Shown here: positions 2,299 to 16,301 of the stretch, piece after piece
Numbering within the stretch: the first letter of the stretch is position 1
Layout of the letters: every line of letters begins with the position of its first letter
Program-made: the position numbers and the translations under genes
NCBI GenBank assembly: GCA_030524175.1
Contig: JAUNHC010000053.1
Coordinates: 1-32,599 of the forward strand
Length of the DNA stretch: 32,599 nucleotides
Origin: Eubacteriales bacterium
GTDB taxonomy: Bacteria > Bacillota > Clostridia > Lachnospirales > Lachnospiraceae
Reading direction: 5' to 3'
Notes under the pieces: generated by a model
What the model was told of the DNA's origin: nothing
What the model saw: the letters and a program-made list of their open reading frames with translations, nothing else
The model's database searches: none

Positions 2299-3170
2299 CC
2301 TTTTGTACCTCCTCTTGACACACCAGCCATGATTTTTTTGCGGAATATGAGGAATAACACGATCAGGGGGACTGAAATTACTACCACTGCAGCCATCATG
2401 GCAGGTATATTTTCCCTTCCAAAACCGTTTTCCCTGATCTCCTGGATGCCGTTAGATACCAGGTAATGGCTGGGATCGTCGGTGATAAGCCGGGGCCACA
2501 CATAAGAATTCCAGCATTCGATGATTTTCAGGATGGCGATGGTCACCAGGGTGGGTTTGCAGATAGGCATCAAAACCCTGCACAGGTACTTTAAGTCTGA
2601 TGTGCCGTCCACCTTGGCTGCCCGGTACAGTTCATCAGGCACCTGCTCAAAATTTTCCTTCAGCAGATAGATGTAAAAGACAGAGGTTACCGAGGGCAGG
2701 ATCAAACCTGCAAAGGTGTTGCGCATGTCAAGGCTGGTGATTGTAGTGAAGTTAGTGATGACTACCAGCTCCGTGGGTATCATCATCAGGGAAAGAAACA
2801 AGGTGAATACTATGTTTTTGCCCCGGAATTCCAGTCTGGCAAAGGCAAAGGCGGCAAGTGTGATCACCACAAGCATAAGTGCTGTGGTAGCAATGGTAAA
2901 AAGCACAGTGTTTGCCAGATATCTTCCCAGAGGAACTGCTGTGAAGGCCTCTTTATAATTCTCCAGAGTAGGGGCCAGTGTAAAAAGCCTGGGTACATGT
3001 TCTGCGTTATAGGAACCGTAACTTTTTACAGATGTGAGTACCATCCAGTAAAAAGGAAACAGTACAATGGCTGCCCAGAGAGTGAGAAAGATATATGTGA
3101 CAATATTTCGTATTTTCTGGTGCCGTCTGGCTGATTTTTCTATTTTTATATAATCCATTTGATTTTCCAT
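2295..3170 (-). CDS. Carbohydrate ABC transporter permease, MalG-like
   Basis: This is the second inner-membrane subunit of a CUT1-type sugar importer. The 291-residue protein begins with a short charged cytoplasmic N-terminus, followed by a first helix (about 23-46, ending LFPFYWMVLTSVK, typical of MalG-type subunits). Five further hydrophobic segments follow. The EAA coupling loop, which docks on the ATPase, is visible near residues 180-210 (YRAAKVDGTSDLKYLCRVLMP). It sits between the MalF-like permease (14 nt upstream) and the binding protein (4-nt overlap). MalG and MalF types work as a heterodimer, which fits the neighbour. No unusual features were seen. Confidence 0.93.
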   Translation of the reverse strand: MENQMDYIKIEKSARRHQKIRNIVTYIFLTLWAAIVLFPFYWMVLTSVKSYGSYNAEHVPRLFTLAPTLENYKEAFTAVPLGRYLANTVLFTIATTALMLVVITLAAFAFARLEFRGKNIVFTLFLSLMMIPTELVVITNFTTITSLDMRNTFAGLILPSVTSVFYIYLLKENFEQVPDELYRAAKVDGTSDLKYLCRVLMPICKPTLVTIAILKIIECWNSYVWPRLITDDPSHYLVSNGIQEIRENGFGRENIPAMMAAVVVISVPLIVLFLIFRKKIMAGVSRGGTKG

Positions 3171-3184
3171 TTTATCCGGCCTCT

Positions 3185-4075
3185 TTAGTAGTGTACATGT
3201 TTTTTGCTCACAAGCAGGTTAATGCAGGTGATGGTCAGGACGATCACGAAGAGGATCACTGCCGCCGCGGAGGCATAGGACGGATAGCCGCCGCTGTCGC
3301 CGTAGAGCATATCGTAGATATAGCCTACAATAGTATTCATCTCCGCTGCGTTTAAGTTCGTGCCGAACAAGGCCACCGCATCGCTGTAGGCTTTGAAGGC
3401 ACCGATAAAACCTGTGATGATCAGGTAAAAAAGCATAGGTGAGATCATGGGCAGGGTAATTCTTGTAAAAATCCGGAATTTTGACGTGCCGTCCACCCTG
3501 GCCGCGTTGTAGTAGGTTTGGTCTACAGAGGCCAGAGCACTGGTGAGTATCAGGATCTTAAAGGGCATGACCACCCAGATGGTGTATACACATAAAACAA
3601 ACATTTTCGCCCAGTATGGTCCGTCGATAAAGTCAACGGAACTGCCCCCAAACCAGTTAAGGACCAGATTGATCAGCCCGTCAGTATATGGGGTCTTCTT
3701 GAAAAGAATCATAAATACCAGGCCCACTGCCAGAGTATTTGTCACATATGGCAGGAAATATACAGTCTGGTAAAGGTTCCGCAAGGGTTTAACTGAGCTT
3801 AGGGCCACGGAGATCAAAAGAGCCAGTCCCGTGGACAGAGGAACTGTGACGATCACCAATATAAATGTATTTTTTATAGCCTGCAGAAAATAGGGGTCAC
3901 GCAGCACATATGAATAATTATAGGTGCCCGTTCCGAAATAAGTCTGGGATGCAAAATTATAGCCTTCTTCAAAAGAGTAGATAAATACATCGATCAGGGG
4001 ATACACCATGAAAACCCCCAGAAAGACAATTGCCGGCAGGAGATACAGCCAGGCCTTAAAATTGCGCTTTTCCAT
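3185..4075 (-). CDS. Carbohydrate ABC transporter permease, MalF-like
   Basis: This is the first membrane subunit of the CUT1-type importer. The 296-residue protein has a very short cytoplasmic N-terminus and a first helix at about 8-31 (AWLYLLPAIVFLGVFMVYPLIDVF). The LLPA and YP pattern is typical of MalF/UgpA-type subunits. Its EAA loop reads YYNAARVDGTSKFRIFTRI followed by LP, around residues 190-215. Six membrane segments are expected and visible. The gene lies 55 nt downstream of the ATPase and 14 nt before the MalG-like gene, all on one strand. It would form the translocation pore with that partner. Confidence 0.93.
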   Translation of the reverse strand: MEKRNFKAWLYLLPAIVFLGVFMVYPLIDVFIYSFEEGYNFASQTYFGTGTYNYSYVLRDPYFLQAIKNTFILVIVTVPLSTGLALLISVALSSVKPLRNLYQTVYFLPYVTNTLAVGLVFMILFKKTPYTDGLINLVLNWFGGSSVDFIDGPYWAKMFVLCVYTIWVVMPFKILILTSALASVDQTYYNAARVDGTSKFRIFTRITLPMISPMLFYLIITGFIGAFKAYSDAVALFGTNLNAAEMNTIVGYIYDMLYGDSGGYPSYASAAAVILFVIVLTITCINLLVSKKHVHY

Positions 4076-4130
4076 ATTACCTCCAGTGCCGCAGAAACTG
4101 CGGCTATATTCAGATTTGCTGTAAGGATTT

Positions 4131-5240
4131 TTATAAATAGATCCGTTCTTCAGTCTCTTTATTGAAGATCAATACTTTTTTAGGTTTTAATGCAAAATGC
4201 ACGTATTCCCCGGCGGCATGGAGACTGTTTTCCGCATCCACGATGGAGCGGACAGCGGTGCCGTCAAATGCTTCATGAGTGGATACAATACTGATATCCC
4301 GTCCCATGACCTCTACCTGTACAAGCTTACAGCAGAGCGGTCCCTTTTCCTGCAAAACAAAGCCTTCGGGGCGGATACCTACCGTAACTTCCTGGTCTGC
4401 CACTCCTTCTGCGGCCAGAACAGGACTGTCGCCCAGGTACAGTGTATTGTCCTTTACCCTTCCATGAAACACGTTGATGGGCGGTGTTCCCAGGAACTTT
4501 GCCACAAAGAGATTTACCGGGCTGTCGTAAACTTCCTGAGGTTTCCCGATCTGCTGGACAATTCCGTCTTTCATTACCACAATGATGTCAGAAATACTCA
4601 TGGCCTCTTCCTGGTCATGGGTGACAAATACCGTGGTGATTTTTGTTTTTCTCTGGATCTTGCGGATTTCCTCCCGGGTCTGGAGGCGCAGGCGTGCGTC
4701 CAGATTGGAGAGGGGTTCGTCCAGAAGAAGGACATGGGGCATTTTCACCAGTGCCCGGGCAATGGCAACACGCTGCTGCTGGCCCCCGGAGAGCTCACTG
4801 GGCTTACGTTCCATCAGTTCGTCAATCTGCACCAAGTGGGCAGCTTCCAGCGTCCGGTTCTCCATCTCGGATTTAGAAAGTTTATCTTTTCCCTTTAGAT
4901 TCTGGAGAGGAAAGAGGATGTTCTGCTTCACGGTGAGATGAGGGTAAAGTGCATAGTTCTGAAACACCATGCCCACGCCTCTGTTTTCCGGCGGAAGTTC
5001 AGTCACGTCATTGTCGCCGAAAAAAATCTTGCCGCTGGTGGGCTTAATGAGACCGCAGATCAGGTTCAGAGTGGTACTTTTTCCGCACCCGGAAGGCCCA
5101 AGCAGCCCAACTAACATGCCATCAGGGATTTCAAAGGTAAAATCACCCACTGCAATAACATCCTCCCGGGATTTTCTATTGCGGCTGGGGAATTTTTTCG
5201 TGAGATTCTGCAATACGATTTTCATTTTGGTTTTCTCCAT
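4131..5240 (-). CDS. Sugar ABC transporter ATPase, UgpC/MsmK type
   Basis: This cytoplasmic ATPase powers the sugar importer. The 369-residue protein has Walker A GPSGCGKST (48-56), Q-loop near 94 (MVFQNYALYP), signature LSGGQ (150-154), Walker B LLLDEP (171-176) and the switch His at 208 (VTHDQ). A C-terminal TOBE-like domain begins after about 240 (PPINVFHGRV, then the IRPEGF strand), as in MalK/UgpC proteins, which can bind regulators there. It carries a short charged insertion near residues 20-30 (RNRKSREDV). It is the first gene of the operon, whereas many clostridial CUT1 clusters lack a dedicated ATPase. A promoter and a palindrome lie just upstream. Confidence 0.95.
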   Translation of the reverse strand: MEKTKMKIVLQNLTKKFPSRNRKSREDVIAVGDFTFEIPDGMLVGLLGPSGCGKSTTLNLICGLIKPTSGKIFFGDNDVTELPPENRGVGMVFQNYALYPHLTVKQNILFPLQNLKGKDKLSKSEMENRTLEAAHLVQIDELMERKPSELSGGQQQRVAIARALVKMPHVLLLDEPLSNLDARLRLQTREEIRKIQRKTKITTVFVTHDQEEAMSISDIIVVMKDGIVQQIGKPQEVYDSPVNLFVAKFLGTPPINVFHGRVKDNTLYLGDSPVLAAEGVADQEVTVGIRPEGFVLQEKGPLCCKLVQVEVMGRDISIVSTHEAFDGTAVRSIVDAENSLHAAGEYVHFALKPKKVLIFNKETEERIYL

Positions 5241-8472: not shown

Positions 8473-8719
8473 GCATTTCTTCATTTAATATAAAAATTCT
8501 GGAATATTTTAAAATTAATGTCGATTATTGATAGTATTACTGATCTCAGATATTCAATTTGCAGTATTGTCATGGCAGTTCTGCCACATTCCCGTTCCAG
8601 GCATGGACTTTGATACTGAAAATGCATTTATGCACATAAGCTTGCTATTTGTGCCTTATATGAGAAGATTTGGAAGTAAAATGGTAAAATAGGTTACGTA
8701 TCAGGAGGGGAGACAGGGA
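8473..8719. other. Intergenic region upstream of the agr-like locus
   Basis: The stretch is AT-rich. It contains ATGGCAG-TTC-TGCCA (about 8571-8585) and a GCACA...TGTGC inverted pair (about 8634-8656). No confident promoter hexamers were found. A good ribosome site (AGGAGGGG) lies at its end before 8720. No agrD or agrB-like gene is present. Confidence 0.4.
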
Positions 8720-9442
8720 ATGGAACGTACTATTTTATTCATTGATATGGCAGTGGCAGCTGCATTGATCTTCTGGCTGTTGTTCAGTTATCAGAAACGA
8801 AGAAAAGAGGTTCAGGCTAATTATTATCTGAAGCTCCAAAAAACAATTATGAATGAGCATTACATGGTGCTTCAAGAGCAGATCGGACTGACAAGAAGGC
8901 TCCGTCATGATTTGGCAAACCATATCCAGACAATGGAAAGTCTTGAACAGACTGGTCATACAGAGGCGCGCAGAAGATATGAGGAACAGCTTAAAGAATT
9001 ATATACTATTTTAAAAGCAGATGGTTTCTGCGGAAACTATGTCCTGGATGCCATGGTGGTGCGCAGGATAAAACAGTGCACTCAGAGGGGAGTGGAATTC
9101 CGGACATCATTGCGCACTGTGGATGGGGCCGGAATAGACCAGACTGATTTGATGATTGCGTTTTATGAACTGATGGAGTATGGGACAAAACGTGCAGAAG
9201 CAGGAATGCAGAAAAGCTTCTGTCTGGCTGGGAATCAGAAAAACGGCTATCTGTTTTTGCGTCTTACCTGTCCGGCATCAAAAGGGCAGACACCCCGGAA
9301 ACTCAGTCAGTTGTTAAGTATAGAGCTTTCCCAGACAAGCTCCATTGCGGCAAAGTATGAGGGAGAAGTCCGCGGAGAAGTAAAAGATGGAACAGAGACG
9401 ATCTTCTTTACCGTAAAGCTGGGAGAGGAGGGGAAGGAATAA
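8720..9442 (+). CDS. Membrane-tethered histidine phosphotransfer (DHp) protein with a degenerate kinase domain
   Basis: The 240-residue protein has one N-terminal helix (about 8-25), then a coiled segment leading to LTRRLRHDLANHIQTM. This is an AgrC-type H-box with the phospho-acceptor His at 63. The rest aligns in order with the kinase encoded by the next gene: NEHYMVLQEQ here and NEHCELLQEQ there. Its ATP-binding domain is ruined. The N-box position reads YELMEYGTKR (149-158) without the Asn, and no GLGL G-box exists. It would therefore be phosphorylated in trans and hand phosphate to the response regulator, as Spo0B-like proteins do (inference). It overlaps the next gene by 1 nt (TAATG). 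Confidence 0.8.
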   Translation: MERTILFIDMAVAAALIFWLLFSYQKRRKEVQANYYLKLQKTIMNEHYMVLQEQIGLTRRLRHDLANHIQTMESLEQTGHTEARRRYEEQLKELYTILKADGFCGNYVLDAMVVRRIKQCTQRGVEFRTSLRTVDGAGIDQTDLMIAFYELMEYGTKRAEAGMQKSFCLAGNQKNGYLFLRLTCPASKGQTPRKLSQLLSIELSQTSSIAAKYEGEVRGEVKDGTETIFFTVKLGEEGKE

Positions 9443-10620
9443 TGACATTAAATGCTTTGTTAGAGATGTGGTGGATACTTTCACTTTTTATGGATGGGGT
9501 TTTATACTACACATCTGTACATACAGAAATTTTTTCGGCGGCAGCCCAGTCGGGGATGAAGCTTTTAGGGATCATCGTGATTGCTTTACTGAGATTGCCT
9601 GTTTTCTCCACAGGAATATGGAGTACATTTACTCTTCTGGCTATCCTGGATTTTTTTGCCGGAATTTCTATCATGTTACGTTTTGGGACATATAAACTGC
9701 TGGGACTTAATTTGGAGAATTATACTGCAGGTAACTTCAGGATAATGCCGCTGCTTATTTTGATAGTATTTGGGATTCTTGTACATTTTACTTTGGTGCG
9801 CTGGCTTCACAGATTCAGGAATGGGCTAAATCATCCCGGTAAGATCCTAAAAATCATGAATCTTTTTTACTGGATTCCGTCACTTGTAGCTGTCCGTCCT
9901 ATGGATGCCATTGATTTGTCCAATAGTATGGTTGTGGTAGTGAGTAGTATTACCGGTTTGGCAGTGGTACTCTTTGGCTGGGCTTATATGGTTGGTTACC
10001 GCAGGCAGATATCAAAAGAAAATCATTATCTGGCCATGCAGGCAGAGCTTTTCAATGAGCATTGTGAATTATTGCAGGAACAGATGGAGTTTGCCAATAT
10101 GTGCAGAGGCTATCTTCAAAATGGTGATTTTAGCATGCCGGATATAGAGTATCTGGAAAGTTCCTGTTGTACAGGGAAAGACGTATTCACTGAAAACAGC
10201 ATGTTTAATACAGCAATCTGTAATAAAATTAAGCAATGTGAGCAGGAGCAGGTGAAAGTTACTGTGGAATTGGACGGGTTTCAATTGCCGCCGGAAATTG
10301 AAGATATTCATCTTTTGACTATATTCTACAATCTGTTTGACAATGCATTAGAAGCAGCAGTCCAATGTGAAAGCAGCGAAAAATATATTTGTATCCGGGG
10401 TATTACCCAGGCAGATGCAGTTCATCTCGCTATTGAGAATAGTGTGAGCCCAGACAGAAAGCCGGAAAAAAGTCTGTTTACCACAAAGAAGGATAAGGCC
10501 AATCATGGACTGGGACTTCAGATTGTAAGGGATATCACAAAGAGATACCGGGGCCAGCTGCTGTTACGGCAGGAACCTGGGAGGTTTACCGCGGAGGCTG
10601 TTTTGAGGACAGATATTTAA
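9442..10620 (+). CDS. AgrC-like sensor with intact GHKL ATPase domain but no phospho-acceptor His
   Basis: The 392-residue protein carries about six membrane helices in residues 1-186, like AgrC sensors, and then a dimerisation helix. At the H-box the sequence reads ANMCRGYLQNG (218-228), with Gly223 where the first gene has His, and the following Asp is Tyr. The catalytic domain is complete: N-box IFYNLFDNALEAA (294-306) and G-box HGLGLQIVRD (355-364). It can thus be expected to bind ATP but not autophosphorylate. The upstream gene has exactly the missing half, and the two are translationally coupled, so a heteromeric kinase is the simplest reading. The signal is unknown; no AgrB/AgrD is nearby. 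Confidence 0.85.
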   Translation: MTLNALLEMWWILSLFMDGVLYYTSVHTEIFSAAAQSGMKLLGIIVIALLRLPVFSTGIWSTFTLLAILDFFAGISIMLRFGTYKLLGLNLENYTAGNFRIMPLLILIVFGILVHFTLVRWLHRFRNGLNHPGKILKIMNLFYWIPSLVAVRPMDAIDLSNSMVVVVSSITGLAVVLFGWAYMVGYRRQISKENHYLAMQAELFNEHCELLQEQMEFANMCRGYLQNGDFSMPDIEYLESSCCTGKDVFTENSMFNTAICNKIKQCEQEQVKVTVELDGFQLPPEIEDIHLLTIFYNLFDNALEAAVQCESSEKYICIRGITQADAVHLAIENSVSPDRKPEKSLFTTKKDKANHGLGLQIVRDITKRYRGQLLLRQEPGRFTAEAVLRTDI

Positions 10621-10626
10621 AAGGTA

Positions 10627-10650
10627 TTTTTTTAGGGGGGGGGGTAAAAA
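10627..10650 (+). repeat. T7-A-G10 homopolymer tract serving as ribosome binding site
   Basis: Seven T (10627-10633), one A and ten G (10635-10644) lie between the kinase stop and the TTG start of the response regulator at 10651. The G run is the only Shine-Dalgarno candidate, ending 6 nt before the start. Runs of ten G are prone to length change during replication, which here would alter ribosome-site strength and spacing. Confidence 0.7.
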
Positions 10651-11382
10651 TTGTTTTATTGTCTGATATTTTGTGATGACAACGAAGCGCAGTTGAAGGT
10701 TGTCAGCAATACGGTTCTGGATTATATAGAAAAGACGGAGGACTGTGAAGGAAAAGCTGTTTTGTGTACGGGCAAAGAACAGTTAAAAAATGCACTGCTG
10801 AAGGAGGAATGTGAGAACAAGATTGTATTTATGGATATCTGCATGGAAGATGAATATAACGGTATCAAGTTGGGAGAGCAGATAAACAGGGATTTTCCTG
10901 AGGTTTTGCTGGTGTATGTGACCGGATTTCCATGTTATGCCAGTGATGTGTATGAGACACAGCATTGTTATTTTATAGTCAAAGAGGAATTGGAGCAAAG
11001 GCTTCCTGCACTGTTCGGCAAAATAATCCCGGCACAACTCCGCAGAAACCGTGAATTTTTAGATTTACATAAGGGCTTTAAAATCCGTCATATATTGCAG
11101 GCGGACATCCTATATCTGGAAAGAGATTTGCACAAAACTAGAATCTACCTAAAAGATGGAGAACAGGAGGAGACAACAGAGAAGCTGACTCAGCTCATAG
11201 AGAGATTGAATCCCTATGAATTTGTGCGCTGCCATAACAGCTATATTGTGAACATGAGACATATCAGAGAGATCAGCAGAAAATGTATTACAATGGTGAA
11301 TGGCGCCGTGATCAACGTGAGCAGGGCATATGTGCCGGAGGTGAAGAAGCGGTTTACTTTGTGGGGGAATCAGGAGTTTTAA
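10651..11382 (+). CDS. LytTR-family response regulator, AgrA-like
   Basis: The 243-residue protein has a receiver domain (1-120) with acidic pocket CDDNE (8-12), phospho-acceptor Asp62 (VFMDICMED), Thr91 and Lys111. A LytTR DNA-binding domain follows (about 140-240), with the family signature FVRCHNSYIVNMRHI. The start is TTG with the poly-G tract as its only ribosome site; no better in-frame start exists, because the first residues are needed for the receiver's first strand. It is the natural output of the two preceding kinase genes. LytTR regulators bind paired 9-bp sites; no convincing copy was seen nearby. The end is marked by a strong terminator. Confidence 0.92.
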   Translation: MFYCLIFCDDNEAQLKVVSNTVLDYIEKTEDCEGKAVLCTGKEQLKNALLKEECENKIVFMDICMEDEYNGIKLGEQINRDFPEVLLVYVTGFPCYASDVYETQHCYFIVKEELEQRLPALFGKIIPAQLRRNREFLDLHKGFKIRHILQADILYLERDLHKTRIYLKDGEQEETTEKLTQLIERLNPYEFVRCHNSYIVNMRHIREISRKCITMVNGAVINVSRAYVPEVKKRFTLWGNQEF

Positions 11383-11451: not shown

Positions 11452-14400
11452 TTACTTGACTGTAATCTTTTTCGTTGTCCACTTACTGAAGACTTTCGTT
11501 TTATTATTGGAAGTACGGTTTGCTGCATGTACTCCGAAATAATAAGTGCCTTTTTTAACATTTTTAAATACAATTTTATTGGATTTGGTTTTTATCACTA
11601 ACTTTCCGTAGTTTAAGGGGCGGTTTCCATAGCTGCTGTCTTTACCTAAACTTTTACCAAGAATGGCATCATAGCTTGTGATACCTTTGATTTTGTCCAG
11701 GGTGACTGTGACGGTAGTTCCCTTAACTGATACTGACTTTATTTTAGGAGTAGAAGGAGTGGTGGCGGTAACAGTAAATTTCAACGGTGCAGACCATGGG
11801 CCAAATACCTTCTTTCCGTCTACTTTTTTCCATGCATGACAGTATGCGTAATAAGTGCCTTTTTGTATATATTTAAATTCTGTCTGCTGCTTTAAGATGT
11901 TCTTTCTGATATCTACGTACTTTTTGGTAGTGATACAGTTTTTGTTACCGATAACAAAATCATAACCGTCCGCTTTTTCAGCAGTACCATTCAGGGAAAC
12001 GACTGCCGTATTACCGTTAACAGTAATATTTTTAATGGCAGGTGCTCCCACTTTTAAAAGTTCTGACACTGCTTTTTCCAGATCGTCCAAAAGTTCTGAT
12101 ACCTTGTCTTTGGTTAAATCTTTGTCATTAATACCTGCCTCGGCAGCAGATAAGGCCTTTTCAAATTTTGTCCAGGTTGTAAGTGTGTAGTCATCTTTTT
12201 TATAGGATCTGTATTTTTCGTAAGCGGCTTTCAGTGCATTTTTATCTGCTGTTTTTACCAGAGACGCAATAGCATCCTTTAGAACCTTTTCTGCCTGGTC
12301 AACTGCCGTTTGGCTGGAACTTGTTTCTAAAACATTCTTTGCAGATTTCAGTGCCTCCTGCAGTCCATTCCAGGATGACGTAGTATATTCTGTTTCCTTA
12401 TATGCGCTGCAGGTATCATATAATTTGCGGAGAGAACTCTTATCTACGCTTGGTGGATAATAAATATACGTAAGTCCTTTCACTGCAGACTGGAGATCCT
12501 GTAACGCCTGGTTAATTTCTTTTTGCAGTGAAGTATTATCATACAGAACTAACTCGGCTGCTTCTAAAGCCTGGGAAAATCTATTCCAGCTTGATGTGGT
12601 ATAGCCGGAGGACGATTTGTTTTTGTTGGCGTTGTAGGCAGACTGAAGTTCAGATTTATCAATTTCAGTTATGATGATCGAACGTTTAATTGATGGATCA
12701 TCGTCGTAAGATGCTAAAAATGTATACCCGATGTCTGCTTTGCCTTGGAAAATACCCTCCAGTATCCCATTGTAACTATTAAGAGGATTCAGTGAATCTA
12801 TATTACCTTCATCGTCAGCCAGATTGACCCAATACACATTCTTAATGGTATATTGATAAACACTGCTTTTTTGGGGAGTGAATATTGCTGCTTTTTGATT
12901 TGTATATTTAGTGGTATCCTCCCAATCCGTTTCTGAATTTAGTTCTAATGGGGTGAATTCCATATCGGAACCTTTTTTTACGGATATTGATATTTCTTCA
13001 GACTCAATATCCGGAAAATCCTTCAGATAAAATTGAACCGTTGTATCCCCAAGTCTCAGGCCGTCGGCGTCGATACCGTCATTGCCGCCTATTTTATAAG
13101 CAATTTCTCCGTATTTATCGAAAGCTTCATTTATCGAATATAATGTTTCGGATGTGCTGTTATCTTTAAACTCCAATTGGAATTGCCAGCCTGGTAAGTT
13201 AAAGAAATCTCCGTATAGTAAATCAGTGTGTGCTGGCCTTACCAGTAATGATTTTATTATGTTGGAATCTTGTGCAGCCTGTACTTTTACAGAGCAGTTA
13301 CATTGCCTGCAAAGGAAATATATCCTTTCGTTCTCTACAAAATTACGAATAATCGAAGTTGCATCATCAATACGTATTTCAGAGAATTTTCCATTTTTCA
13401 ATATTATTATGCGTGGCTGTTCGGTTTTCCCATCCTCATCATCATACTTTTGTGCGCTGTCGTTTGGTGTAAAAACAATTTCATAGGTTCCGGCTTTTTC
13501 TGCTTTGTAGGAAAAACAGTATCCGTTATTATAGTTTGAGCCAGCAGTCGAAGCAATGTCTTTATCTAATGATAGCTCCGGCAAATTATTTAATTCGGAG
13601 AGACTTATCACATTAACAGATTTAACAAAATCTCTTCCCTCTATATAGCTGTTGTTAATATGAACCGTCAAAATCCCGGAAGTATAATTGCTATCTTCAT
13701 CCACCGGCCAGTCGTAGTTTAAATATCCATAATTAATACCATCTCTGTAAATTGGGTCTCCACATTCAACAGGTATAGATATATTATCCGAAAAGATTAC
13801 ATTGAATACAACAGGCAGAGGGGCATATTCCATCAAAAATTCTTTAATATATGTCTTGCTTAAATTTTGCCCTGGTGGTAACTCTATTTTTCGAATTTCT
13901 CCAACAGCAGTTGCTTTTACTTTAAGAGTTTCTTCTGAAGAAACCCCAACATGGAATATTTCCCCTTGCTGCAGCTTTTCCGGCAGCATTCTCCAAGCAT
14001 AATTCCACTGTAAATTTTGAGATGATCTATTACTTTTTACGTTCTCTTTTGCCCAATAATAGTCAAAGGAATCCAGCTCATCATTATCTTTTGTCTTAAC
14101 CTGGAAAATATAGGTGCCGTTTTCCGGGGCAGTAAAGGAAAACCACTGAAGATCATGAATTCCTTTTGTTAAGGTTTTTTCCTGGTTTATTCCCAAATTT
14201 GTTATTTGGGACAAATCCGGTTTGTCTACAATATGTATGGTGTATTTAGGGCTTGTCACCTCACTTTTATCAAACCCTGCCCAAACCTTTTGGTCTCCTG
14301 TCAATATGGAGCCGTCATCATACGCATCGGTATATATTTCCAGATGTCCATAATATTTGCTTGGTTTACTCCAGCTAGTGGAAATAATTTCAGAAGGAGT

Positions 14401-16239
14401 TCCATCGGAATAAGTAACTTCAAATAAGCAATCTTTAGCGACATTGCTAAAACCATCATCGTATAGAATATCAGCTATAAAGCTTTTTCCTTCGATATTT
14501 CCGCGTTTTAAGCTGATAGATTTTATAAGTGGTTTTTTTTCAATTTCCACTTCAACAGCATCAGCTGTTAGATTTTTTGCTATGAAATATATGGTTTCAT
14601 TTTGCTTTAAGTTGGGCGAAAAGATTATGTCTTCATCGCTCTCCTGTGTACCGTGAGAGGAAGCAACAGTTTTTGCGTTCTTAATGGTGAAATCATACAC
14701 GCCTTCCTCTGGTGCCTGGAATTTAAAATATGCTCCGTCAAGATATGCTTCAGATAACGGTATTGTGTTAACAGAATTTAATTTAATTTCTGTCATATAC
14801 GAAGCAGTATCGAAATCAACAAGTTTGGGGCCTTGGACGGAATGGCCTGGGGAACCCCAGTCGTTATCATTTGCCAGATAGTACACTATATGCCCATTGA
14901 TCTCTGTACTAGTTATGCGTCCATATTCCTGGCTTCCTTCCTTATATGTTATAGTATCGGAAGTTTCATCTGTGTATGTTATGACAAATTTAGTATCCGG
15001 TAATAGTTTTGTGTAAAGGTCTATCATTTCCGAAGGCATTGTTTGCCCATTGGTCAATGTAAAAGACTGAAGCATTTTTGCCGAATTTAAACGAAAGGAT
15101 AATGTTTCAGTGGGATCAGAGGATGATATTCTGACCAGATATCTGCTATTTGCCGCTAAAGAGAAACGTGCTTCGTTTGACACAGATTGATTAAAAACAG
15201 GATCTGGAACTATTTTGTTTTCTTCAGAATCTGATATTTCATATACTCGAACATAAAATATATTAGAAAACTCATTTGTATCCTCGAATTTTATCTTATA
15301 GATACCTTCAGCACTGGTCTTAAACTGGAAACAATAATTATTTGCATCTGTTTTGGAGATAGTATGCACATTGTTGTCAATGTCAATGCTTGTTGGATCT
15401 GATTCTGTTATTTCTTTGTAATTTAGTTGAATGGGATCGGTTTCTACTGCTGGTGCACATGCTATACTTATGTACATTTTATTGTCGGAATCTGTCCGCC
15501 AATTACAATATCCGTATATCTCTGAGCATCCCGAATTATCTGTTATTGTCTCATTTCCATTAATATCGGTAATTTTTAATGTGGTATTTAATTCAGTAAC
15601 AGATTCTCCCTTATAGTAGGTAGGAATATCAGAATTGACAATTTCCAGTTTTTCAATATCAGGAAGCTGTGTAGCTGTGACTGTTGTGGCTCCCTGTATA
15701 TCTTTACAGTTGACAGTATAAGTGTCCTCATTAAGACGTACAATAAATTTCTGAGGCTCATGACTTCCGTAATGGCCAGGTATTTCTATAAGGAACGGAG
15801 AGGAATAGCTTAACTGGTAAATCCCTTCCTCGCTTATCTTCAGTGTGAAAGAGTCCGTCCCTTCTGACCCTGGCTGAACGGTGATTTCTCCTCCGATTTC
15901 TAAGACACGTGTATCGTCCGTATCACCTGATGAGAAAAGCATAATTTCCTCTTCGGGTTCTTCAGAGGTAAACGCCCCTGTTTCTTGTTCCTCATTCATA
16001 CCGTCACTAAAATCCAAAACGGCTTCTTCATCTTGGTAAGTTTCTCTGTCCATGAGGATTTCATCATTGCCCTGTGATGAAACAGCTTCCATGGCTGCAG
16101 ACTCATTTGATTCTGAATCGGATGTTAAGCTTTCAGTGTCAAATACTTCTGTTTGACCCTCTGCTTCTGCCCAGGCAATGCCTCCTGATGTGCAAATCAG
16201 GGAGATTGCCAAAAAACATGCCAACACTTTCTTCTTCAT
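11452..16239 (-). CDS. Very large secreted surface protein with three FIVAR repeats
   Basis: About 1595 residues. The ATG at 16239 is preferred over the one at 16245, because AAGGAGG (16253-16247) is 7 nt from the former and only 1 nt from the latter. A signal peptide (MKKKVLACFLAISLIC to IAWAEA) is followed by an acidic linker (to about 115). Then come many beta-sandwich units that alternate PPC-like modules (pattern F-K-A-E-x-G-x-Y) with Ig-like segments. Three FIVAR-type helical repeats begin near residues 1192, 1264 and 1331, each with YTTSSWN or YTLTTWT. Two terminal Ig-like units carry a KKGTYY motif. No LPxTG or transmembrane anchor ends the protein. It is probably a cell-surface adhesin or glycan binder; no catalytic domain was recognised. 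It is poorer in GC than its neighbours. Confidence 0.85.
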   Translation of the reverse strand: MKKKVLACFLAISLICTSGGIAWAEAEGQTEVFDTESLTSDSESNESAAMEAVSSQGNDEILMDRETYQDEEAVLDFSDGMNEEQETGAFTSEEPEEEIMLFSSGDTDDTRVLEIGGEITVQPGSEGTDSFTLKISEEGIYQLSYSSPFLIEIPGHYGSHEPQKFIVRLNEDTYTVNCKDIQGATTVTATQLPDIEKLEIVNSDIPTYYKGESVTELNTTLKITDINGNETITDNSGCSEIYGYCNWRTDSDNKMYISIACAPAVETDPIQLNYKEITESDPTSIDIDNNVHTISKTDANNYCFQFKTSAEGIYKIKFEDTNEFSNIFYVRVYEISDSEENKIVPDPVFNQSVSNEARFSLAANSRYLVRISSSDPTETLSFRLNSAKMLQSFTLTNGQTMPSEMIDLYTKLLPDTKFVITYTDETSDTITYKEGSQEYGRITSTEINGHIVYYLANDNDWGSPGHSVQGPKLVDFDTASYMTEIKLNSVNTIPLSEAYLDGAYFKFQAPEEGVYDFTIKNAKTVASSHGTQESDEDIIFSPNLKQNETIYFIAKNLTADAVEVEIEKKPLIKSISLKRGNIEGKSFIADILYDDGFSNVAKDCLFEVTYSDGTPSEIISTSWSKPSKYYGHLEIYTDAYDDGSILTGDQKVWAGFDKSEVTSPKYTIHIVDKPDLSQITNLGINQEKTLTKGIHDLQWFSFTAPENGTYIFQVKTKDNDELDSFDYYWAKENVKSNRSSQNLQWNYAWRMLPEKLQQGEIFHVGVSSEETLKVKATAVGEIRKIELPPGQNLSKTYIKEFLMEYAPLPVVFNVIFSDNISIPVECGDPIYRDGINYGYLNYDWPVDEDSNYTSGILTVHINNSYIEGRDFVKSVNVISLSELNNLPELSLDKDIASTAGSNYNNGYCFSYKAEKAGTYEIVFTPNDSAQKYDDEDGKTEQPRIIILKNGKFSEIRIDDATSIIRNFVENERIYFLCRQCNCSVKVQAAQDSNIIKSLLVRPAHTDLLYGDFFNLPGWQFQLEFKDNSTSETLYSINEAFDKYGEIAYKIGGNDGIDADGLRLGDTTVQFYLKDFPDIESEEISISVKKGSDMEFTPLELNSETDWEDTTKYTNQKAAIFTPQKSSVYQYTIKNVYWVNLADDEGNIDSLNPLNSYNGILEGIFQGKADIGYTFLASYDDDPSIKRSIIITEIDKSELQSAYNANKNKSSSGYTTSSWNRFSQALEAAELVLYDNTSLQKEINQALQDLQSAVKGLTYIYYPPSVDKSSLRKLYDTCSAYKETEYTTSSWNGLQEALKSAKNVLETSSSQTAVDQAEKVLKDAIASLVKTADKNALKAAYEKYRSYKKDDYTLTTWTKFEKALSAAEAGINDKDLTKDKVSELLDDLEKAVSELLKVGAPAIKNITVNGNTAVVSLNGTAEKADGYDFVIGNKNCITTKKYVDIRKNILKQQTEFKYIQKGTYYAYCHAWKKVDGKKVFGPWSAPLKFTVTATTPSTPKIKSVSVKGTTVTVTLDKIKGITSYDAILGKSLGKDSSYGNRPLNYGKLVIKTKSNKIVFKNVKKGTYYFGVHAANRTSNNKTKVFSKWTTKKITVK

Positions 16240-16301
16240 GTTCATTCCTCCTTGTTCCTGACCTGGATTCCGGTCACTTATTTCAATTATTTTATCAAAA
16301 T

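Follow-up and report, generated by a model that had tools for sequence, protein, structure and literature searches.

Can two adjacent genes, one encoding a kinase-like protein with a phospho-acceptor histidine and the other a kinase-like protein with an ATP site, together specify a single histidine kinase? The question is raised by a locus in the window, by which we mean the whole stretch of DNA analysed, a single contig of 32.6 kb (32,599 nucleotides) from the 5.95-Mb genome of a gut Blautia (family Lachnospiraceae). Three genes run together there on the + strand: gene A (8720..9442, 240 amino acids), gene B (9442..10620, 392 amino acids) and a LytTR response regulator gene with a TTG start (10651..11382). 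A and B both start with ATG and overlap by 1 nt. Purine-rich putative ribosome-binding sites, read from the sequence, lie 9 nt 5' of the ATG of A (AGGAGGGG, 8703..8710) and, for B, within the 3' end of A (9424..9433). Because of the 1-base overlap and the placement of the B ribosome site inside the end of A, the two proteins are probably translated together. Just 5' of the regulator TTG (10651) is a run of ten G residues (10635-10644), at which slippage might make translation of the regulator variable.

Protein A is the His-bearing half, with one predicted transmembrane segment, a coiled coil, a DHp region and a degenerate CA-like region whose approximate boundaries (9140..9439) were drawn from Pfam, motifs and alignment. 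It carries TRRLRHDLANHI, with the H-box RLRHDLANH at residues 60-68 (8897..8923) and the His63 codon at 8906-8908. Neither an N-box nor a G-box motif was found in A: FYELMEYG occupies the N-box position and the G-box is missing. Pfam returned sub-cut-off matches only, the best to SPOB_a (PF14689, 22.6 bits versus a cut-off of 28.1), and no match to HATPase_c_5. Motif check and Pfam thus agree with the original prediction that A keeps the H-box histidine and has lost both ATP-site boxes. When solved structures were searched, a profile of A matched none and the A sequence alone gave one chance match.

Protein B is the ATP-bearing half, apparently polytopic and without a phospho-acceptor histidine, as judged from its open reading frame, Pfam and motifs. 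It keeps NLFDNA and HGLGL, with the N-box FYNLFDNALEAA at residues 295-306 (10324..10359) and the G-box HGLGL at residues 355-359 (10504..10518), and its GHKL CA domain matches HATPase_c_5 (PF14501) at 72.5 bits (cut-off 22). A profile of B also matches the AgrC CA structure 4bxi (E 1.4e-4). The H-box motif is absent from B. BLASTP aligned A and B at 25% identity over 190 amino acids (E 2e-10), pairing the signalling helix NEHYMVLQEQ of A (residues 45-54, 8852..8881) with NEHCELLQEQ of B (residues 205-214, 10054..10083) and placing His63 opposite Gly223 in the H-box remnant CRGYLQN (residues 221-227, 10102..10122). Open reading frames and BLASTP therefore reproduce the predicted pair of genes overlapping by 1 nt and aligning through this helix, and motif check and alignment likewise reproduce the retained ATP boxes of B and the glycine at its His position. 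In the regulator, the LytTR domain (PF04397) scores 74.9 bits and the receiver domain (PF00072) 21.9 bits, under its cut-off of 30.2. Residues D9, D10, D62, T91 and K111 are kept in the regulators of the window and Blautia schinkii, Asp62 (codon 10834-10836) being the presumed phospho-acceptor.

We then asked how far the pair is conserved, labelling complementary A/B pairs type I and inspecting the best matches and the short frames. In B. schinkii the three genes stand in identical order, the A, B and regulator proteins being 54%, 48% and 53% identical to those of the window. In a genome of another genus, G509, A (51% identical) and B (27% identical) overlap; this B has a weaker G-box, RGQGL after a long insert, and its CA domain passes the Pfam cut-off (33 versus 22). 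No regulator was seen in G509 up to the contig end, and 3' of B begins another polytopic B-like protein, which the contig end cuts off (L077:6053-6760). A third genome, G089, encodes a distant A (27%) and a distant B (24%) on separate contigs; its B carries an aspartate in place of the His and keeps its ATP site intact. The A contig ends in a regulator gene and the B contig opens with a regulator tail directly 5' of B. The end of the former and the start of the latter (L040 and L042) carry inverted 14-bp ends and a repeated 8-bp flank, TTATAAAC. The sequence suggests that, between its A and B homologues, G089 carries an insertion element that interrupts the LytTR regulator gene.

The gene pair and both losses, which the original prediction had proposed seeking in related genomes, are thus conserved in B. 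schinkii, G509 and G089, and by motif the halves are complementary in all four type I genomes, the window's included. In a joint alignment the His column holds His-Asp in four of four A proteins and a histidine in none of the four B proteins, and every recognised A-like protein with a dead CA (n=4) has a polytopic counterpart with an ATP site and no histidine. R62, H63, D64, L65, A66, N67 and H68 are invariant in all four A proteins, and mean pairwise identity along A peaks in the H-box bin (residues 61-80, 0.61). Along B it peaks in the N-box bin (281-300, 0.58) and is 0.20 in the bin of the lost histidine (221-240). A contig scan with B gave three loci, that of B. schinkii and the distant L045 and L046. 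The kinases of the last two are full length, with histidine and ATP site, and we did not count them as relatives of the pair.

The B proteins differ from the other proteins in one respect that bears on assembly. Between His column and N-box, the joint alignment gives 75 residues for window B, 75-76 once the B. schinkii and G509 B proteins are included, and 84 for G089 B; the A proteins (n=4) have 87 or 88, and the complete kinases aligned with them (n=4) have 87. This reduced spacing indicates that the hairpin of the window, B. schinkii and G509 B proteins is about 12 residues short. Window B also falls a net 28 residues short of its B. schinkii counterpart, through an in-frame gap near the N-terminus that may remove a membrane segment, and a crude hydropathy count gives four segments in window B, four in B. 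schinkii B and six in G089 B.

Type I pairs are rare. They occur in 2 of the 64 genomes of the genus, where all candidates were scored. Beyond the genus, they were recognised only in G509 and G089 among the inspected matches from 397 family and 392 order genomes, with the best candidates per genome scored, and in the genera of these two genomes they occur in 1 of 11 and 1 of 1 genomes with no further case. The family, order and class searches scored the best 5 to 7 candidates per genome, so counts outside the genus are lower bounds.

Related ARRANGEMENTS comprise type II and type III loci. Type II, found by searching with A, pairs a short single-pass protein that is a complete kinase with a polytopic neighbour lacking the His and ATP motifs. 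It is represented by loci in G008 (where the polytopic partner was read in two frames), G154, G464, G322, G146 and G755, and by incomplete loci in G089:C64, whose short kinase stops before the G-box, and G239, where a contig end leaves the short kinase alone. The G755 locus (L118:1193-3963) encodes a complete short kinase followed by two polytopic pseudokinases without His and ATP motifs. The original prediction had singled out homologues with a histidine in the second protein or an intact ATP site in the first, at the same locus, as pointing to decay or sequencing error. We found none in type I. The related type II loci have a complete kinase as their short protein, which means that the pattern does not hold throughout the wider clade.

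Type III loci are a mirror image of the window pair. Here the His-only protein is polytopic, has 276-329 residues and ends right after the H-box hairpin, and the ATP-only protein has 269-304 residues, 1-2 predicted membrane segments, no phospho-acceptor histidine and an intact CA domain. We found 16 such loci; together they hold 21 His-only and 17 ATP-only proteins, and in every locus the motifs are complementary. One of the 21 His-only genes, the second of G223, is broken (164 codons, read in two frames). Because the query was an ATP-only protein, the His-only partners were unselected. A histidine occupies the His column in none of the 17 ATP-only proteins, the G037 protein having a histidine one column earlier. 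The N- and G-box residues do not vary among 13 of the ATP-only proteins, and in 13 His-only proteins, which are 18-30% identical to the first of them, the H-box residues H, D, N and H make up four of the eight invariant columns. Among solved structures, a profile built from type III ATP-only proteins hits the AgrC kinase module 6e52 (E 5e-8). A LytTR motif lies next to 13 of the 16 loci; a receiver-like ORF was found in G223 and G387, and neither was recognised in G056. That genome also encodes, beside a separate pair, a natural 653-aa fusion of His-only and ATP-only halves (L156:3066-5027, minus strand) with its H-box at 265 and a GHKL domain of 68.3 bits at 550-648, which suggests that such halves work together.

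Type III is present in 11 of the 64 genomes of the genus, all candidates scored; 14 genomes matched at E 1e-20, the other three with full-length frames or a fragment. B. schinkii has a type III locus (L163), as does the window's own genome (L161, G000:C51:75500-82500), with a regulator at 2303-3013, an ATP-only gene at 3026-3865 and a polytopic His-only gene at 3862-4749. Elsewhere in that genome, a 170-residue ORF (L168:3132-3644, G000:C52) by eye joins part of a LytTR domain to a histidine kinase tail and is perhaps a deletion remnant. When 391 class genomes were searched with the His-only profile, a strong short-frame match was found only in the window's genome among the best candidates scored; most other matches listed are frames of more than 420 codons, and a few are shorter and weaker (for example G990, 299 codons). 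The one His-only protein scanned scored above no Pfam kinase cut-off (0 of 1), suggesting that split systems are easily missed in annotation.

We placed these proteins in a tree of 71 rows, after dropping 12 of 83 (near-copies, the cut-short G089:C64 short kinase and the fusion protein). Types I and II and one complete kinase form one clade (99/94) apart from type III. A groups with the type II polytopic pseudokinases and B lies near the complete kinase of G297, although long branches leave the placement of A and of the G322 pseudokinase unsure. The original prediction of a duplicated kinase with reciprocal losses does not stand as worded, since A and B do not come out as sisters in this tree; their grouping together, and with it direct duplication, was not rejected (p-AU 0.17). 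A single clade of type I B and type III ATP-only proteins was rejected (p-AU 0.0001), as was a single clade of the type III ATP-only proteins (p-AU 0.0029). The trees thus reject a single origin of ATP-only proteins, and under this model splitting would have arisen at least three times.

On the sequence evidence, we consider it about 75% probable that A and B form one bipartite AgrC-type (HPK10) kinase in which B phosphorylates A in trans and A feeds the regulator. B, as a polytopic membrane sensor, would bind ATP in its intact CA domain and phosphorylate His63 in the dimerisation helix of A, its single-pass partner with a dead CA. From A the phosphate would pass to Asp62 of the LytTR regulator encoded next door, which A may also dephosphorylate, and neither A nor B alone should form phosphohistidine; we infer both the association and this route of phosphate. 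Because the B hairpin is about 12 residues short, a symmetric A-B bundle is doubtful, and an A2B2 assembly in which an A-A four-helix bundle is served by the CA domain of B would be no less likely than a simple A-B bundle. The points we counted against this bipartite kinase are the rarity of type I, the short hairpin of B and the shortening of window B, together with the weak G-box and unseen regulator of G509, the split contigs and interrupted regulator of G089 and the receiver score under the Pfam cut-off. Some of the same points, namely the rarity of type I, the shorter window B and the interrupted G089 regulator, would be expected if two once-complete kinases were being lost or had been misread by sequencing. 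We judge decay or sequencing error to be the least probable of the alternatives and set it aside, since the reciprocal losses recur in open frames across four genomes: the pair is kept in B. schinkii, complementary halves occur in two other genomes of the family, the frames of B. schinkii and G509 are open with identical reciprocal losses, the A H-box is invariant in four genomes, and the pattern recurs as mirror images. The split pair is real and conserved, and probably functional, and because related bacteria repeat the split in both orientations it looks less like a broken gene than like a switch made of two proteins that evolution has preserved.

Two further explanations would keep A and B functional and assign them other roles. 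A could be a phosphotransfer hub of the Spo0B/ChpT kind fed by other complete HPK10 kinases, with B as an ATP-binding modulator. The genome has 38 HATPase_c_5 matches, many in frames of more than 400 codons, that could supply such kinases, and the DHp and dead CA layout of A and its weak sub-threshold SPOB_a match would suit a hub. We nevertheless think this improbable, as the two genes lie side by side in the window, B. schinkii and G509 and the N-box is the most conserved stretch of B, and kinase-partner specificity usually disfavours cross-feeding. Slightly less probable again is that A mainly dephosphorylates or sequesters the regulator, gated by the ATPase of B, with no net kinase activity. 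The His-bearing partner of CheA3/CheA4 is also the phosphatase (PMC3591291), yet a pure phosphatase system would need neither the phospho-acceptor site of the regulator nor the full ATP site of B, and both are kept.

How does a bipartite kinase of this kind compare with known systems? AgrC of Staphylococcus aureus belongs to the same kinase family as B (HPK10) and has its histidine and ATP site on one chain. The window pair has the GHKL CA domain and adjacent LytTR regulator of that family, with H-box and ATP site divided between two chains. Cisar and colleagues reportedly engineered complementing AgrC dimers in 2009. Spo0B and ChpT, like A, consist of a DHp and a non-ATP-binding CA-like domain; A differs from them in being membrane-anchored, lying beside a presumed kinase and scoring under the SPOB_a cut-off. 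In Mycobacterium tuberculosis, Rv0600c and Rv0601c share out the ATP and His parts, and belong to a different kinase subfamily from the window pair. These two kinases are said to cooperate with one regulator, TcrA (PMC9274095).

The original prediction knew of no agr-type system in this form, and on this point it has been overtaken: FasBCA of Streptococcus pyogenes (group A Streptococcus) is comparable, and is the closest system we found, with two adjacent kinase-like proteins and a regulator, as in the window, all three in one operon. In its description (PMC12675982, October 2025), the kinase domain of FasB is proposed to phosphorylate His246 of FasC, FasC needs His246 and can dispense with its own kinase domain, two-hybrid assays detected a FasB-FasC heterodimer and no homodimers, and FasC 1-286 with FasB 216-448 suffices; FasA is a ComE-like regulator. 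The window likewise encodes two AgrC-like kinase proteins and a LytTR regulator in one gene cluster. However, six transmembrane segments are predicted for each of FasB and FasC, whereas one is predicted for window A, and the proposed sensor of Fas is its His partner, whereas the window joins the histidine to a single-pass protein and the ATP site to an apparently polytopic one. In layout, the type III proteins match FasC 1-286 and FasB 216-448.

CheA3/CheA4 of Rhodobacter sphaeroides resembles the window pair in carrying the ATP site and the phospho-acceptor histidine on two proteins, a division that motifs and alignment establish for A and B. Neither CheA protein autophosphorylates alone; one phosphorylates the other, which feeds the regulator (PMC3591291). 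Unlike the window pair, they are of the CheA family, with P1-P5 domains, a role in chemotaxis and whole-domain loss. The same study reports a SMART survey in which 711 of 42417 HisKA proteins (1.7%) lacked a HATPase domain but retained a phosphatase motif, making them potential split kinases. A further split kinase is the Hik36-Hik43 pair of Synechocystis (PMC7656254), and a review describes trans phosphorylation as a usual mode of histidine kinases (PMC12189002).

The split-kinase principle is therefore already published, and the window pair is a variant of it. We found no description of pairs of this kind in Blautia among the matches listed from the open-licence literature, in searches run mostly without the genus name and all without Lachnospiraceae; nor did that literature yield a description of reversed polarity, of recurrent splitting or of a natural fusion of the halves. 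The pair looks like a natural experiment in complementation between H-minus and ATP-minus kinases, kept by evolution and repeated with both polarities, and it offers separable parts for asking whether histidine kinases can be strict hetero-oligomers. It also bears on partner specificity in a genome with dozens of similar kinases, and on switch-like responses from a split kinase/phosphatase of the sort modelled for CheA3/CheA4 (PMC3591291).

Taking types I and III jointly, we lean, with less assurance than for the window pair itself, towards the reading that, within the family to which Blautia belongs, kinases of the AgrC type have split at least three times into obligate complementary halves of opposite polarity. 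If so, in the window type the small protein would carry the histidine and the sensor the ATP site; in the mirror type a polytopic sensor that has lost its whole catalytic domain would carry the histidine, leaving ATP binding to a small partner anchored in the membrane. Evolution would then have arrived repeatedly, by splitting, at a hetero-oligomeric sensor that has its kinase and phosphatase activities on different chains, allowing switch-like responses. Four loci (L162, L164, L169 and L170) have two His-only genes per ATP-only gene, suggesting that two His-bearing sensors could share one ATP-bearing engine.

AgrB, the peptide-processing protein that lies beside the kinase in agr quorum-sensing loci, was not found by Pfam among the 34 window ORFs of at least 120 amino acids. 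Convergent with the regulator gene is a minus-strand gene (11452-16245) for a 1597-residue protein with three FIVAR stretches and, by eye, an apparent signal peptide; from position alone, it is a possible target. Look-alike secreted proteins also adjoin the kinase pairs of B. schinkii (L039:5708-6511) and G322 (L083:166-999); by eye, these have YYxxNGK-like repeats and a transglutaminase-like end, and they are possibly a shared target.
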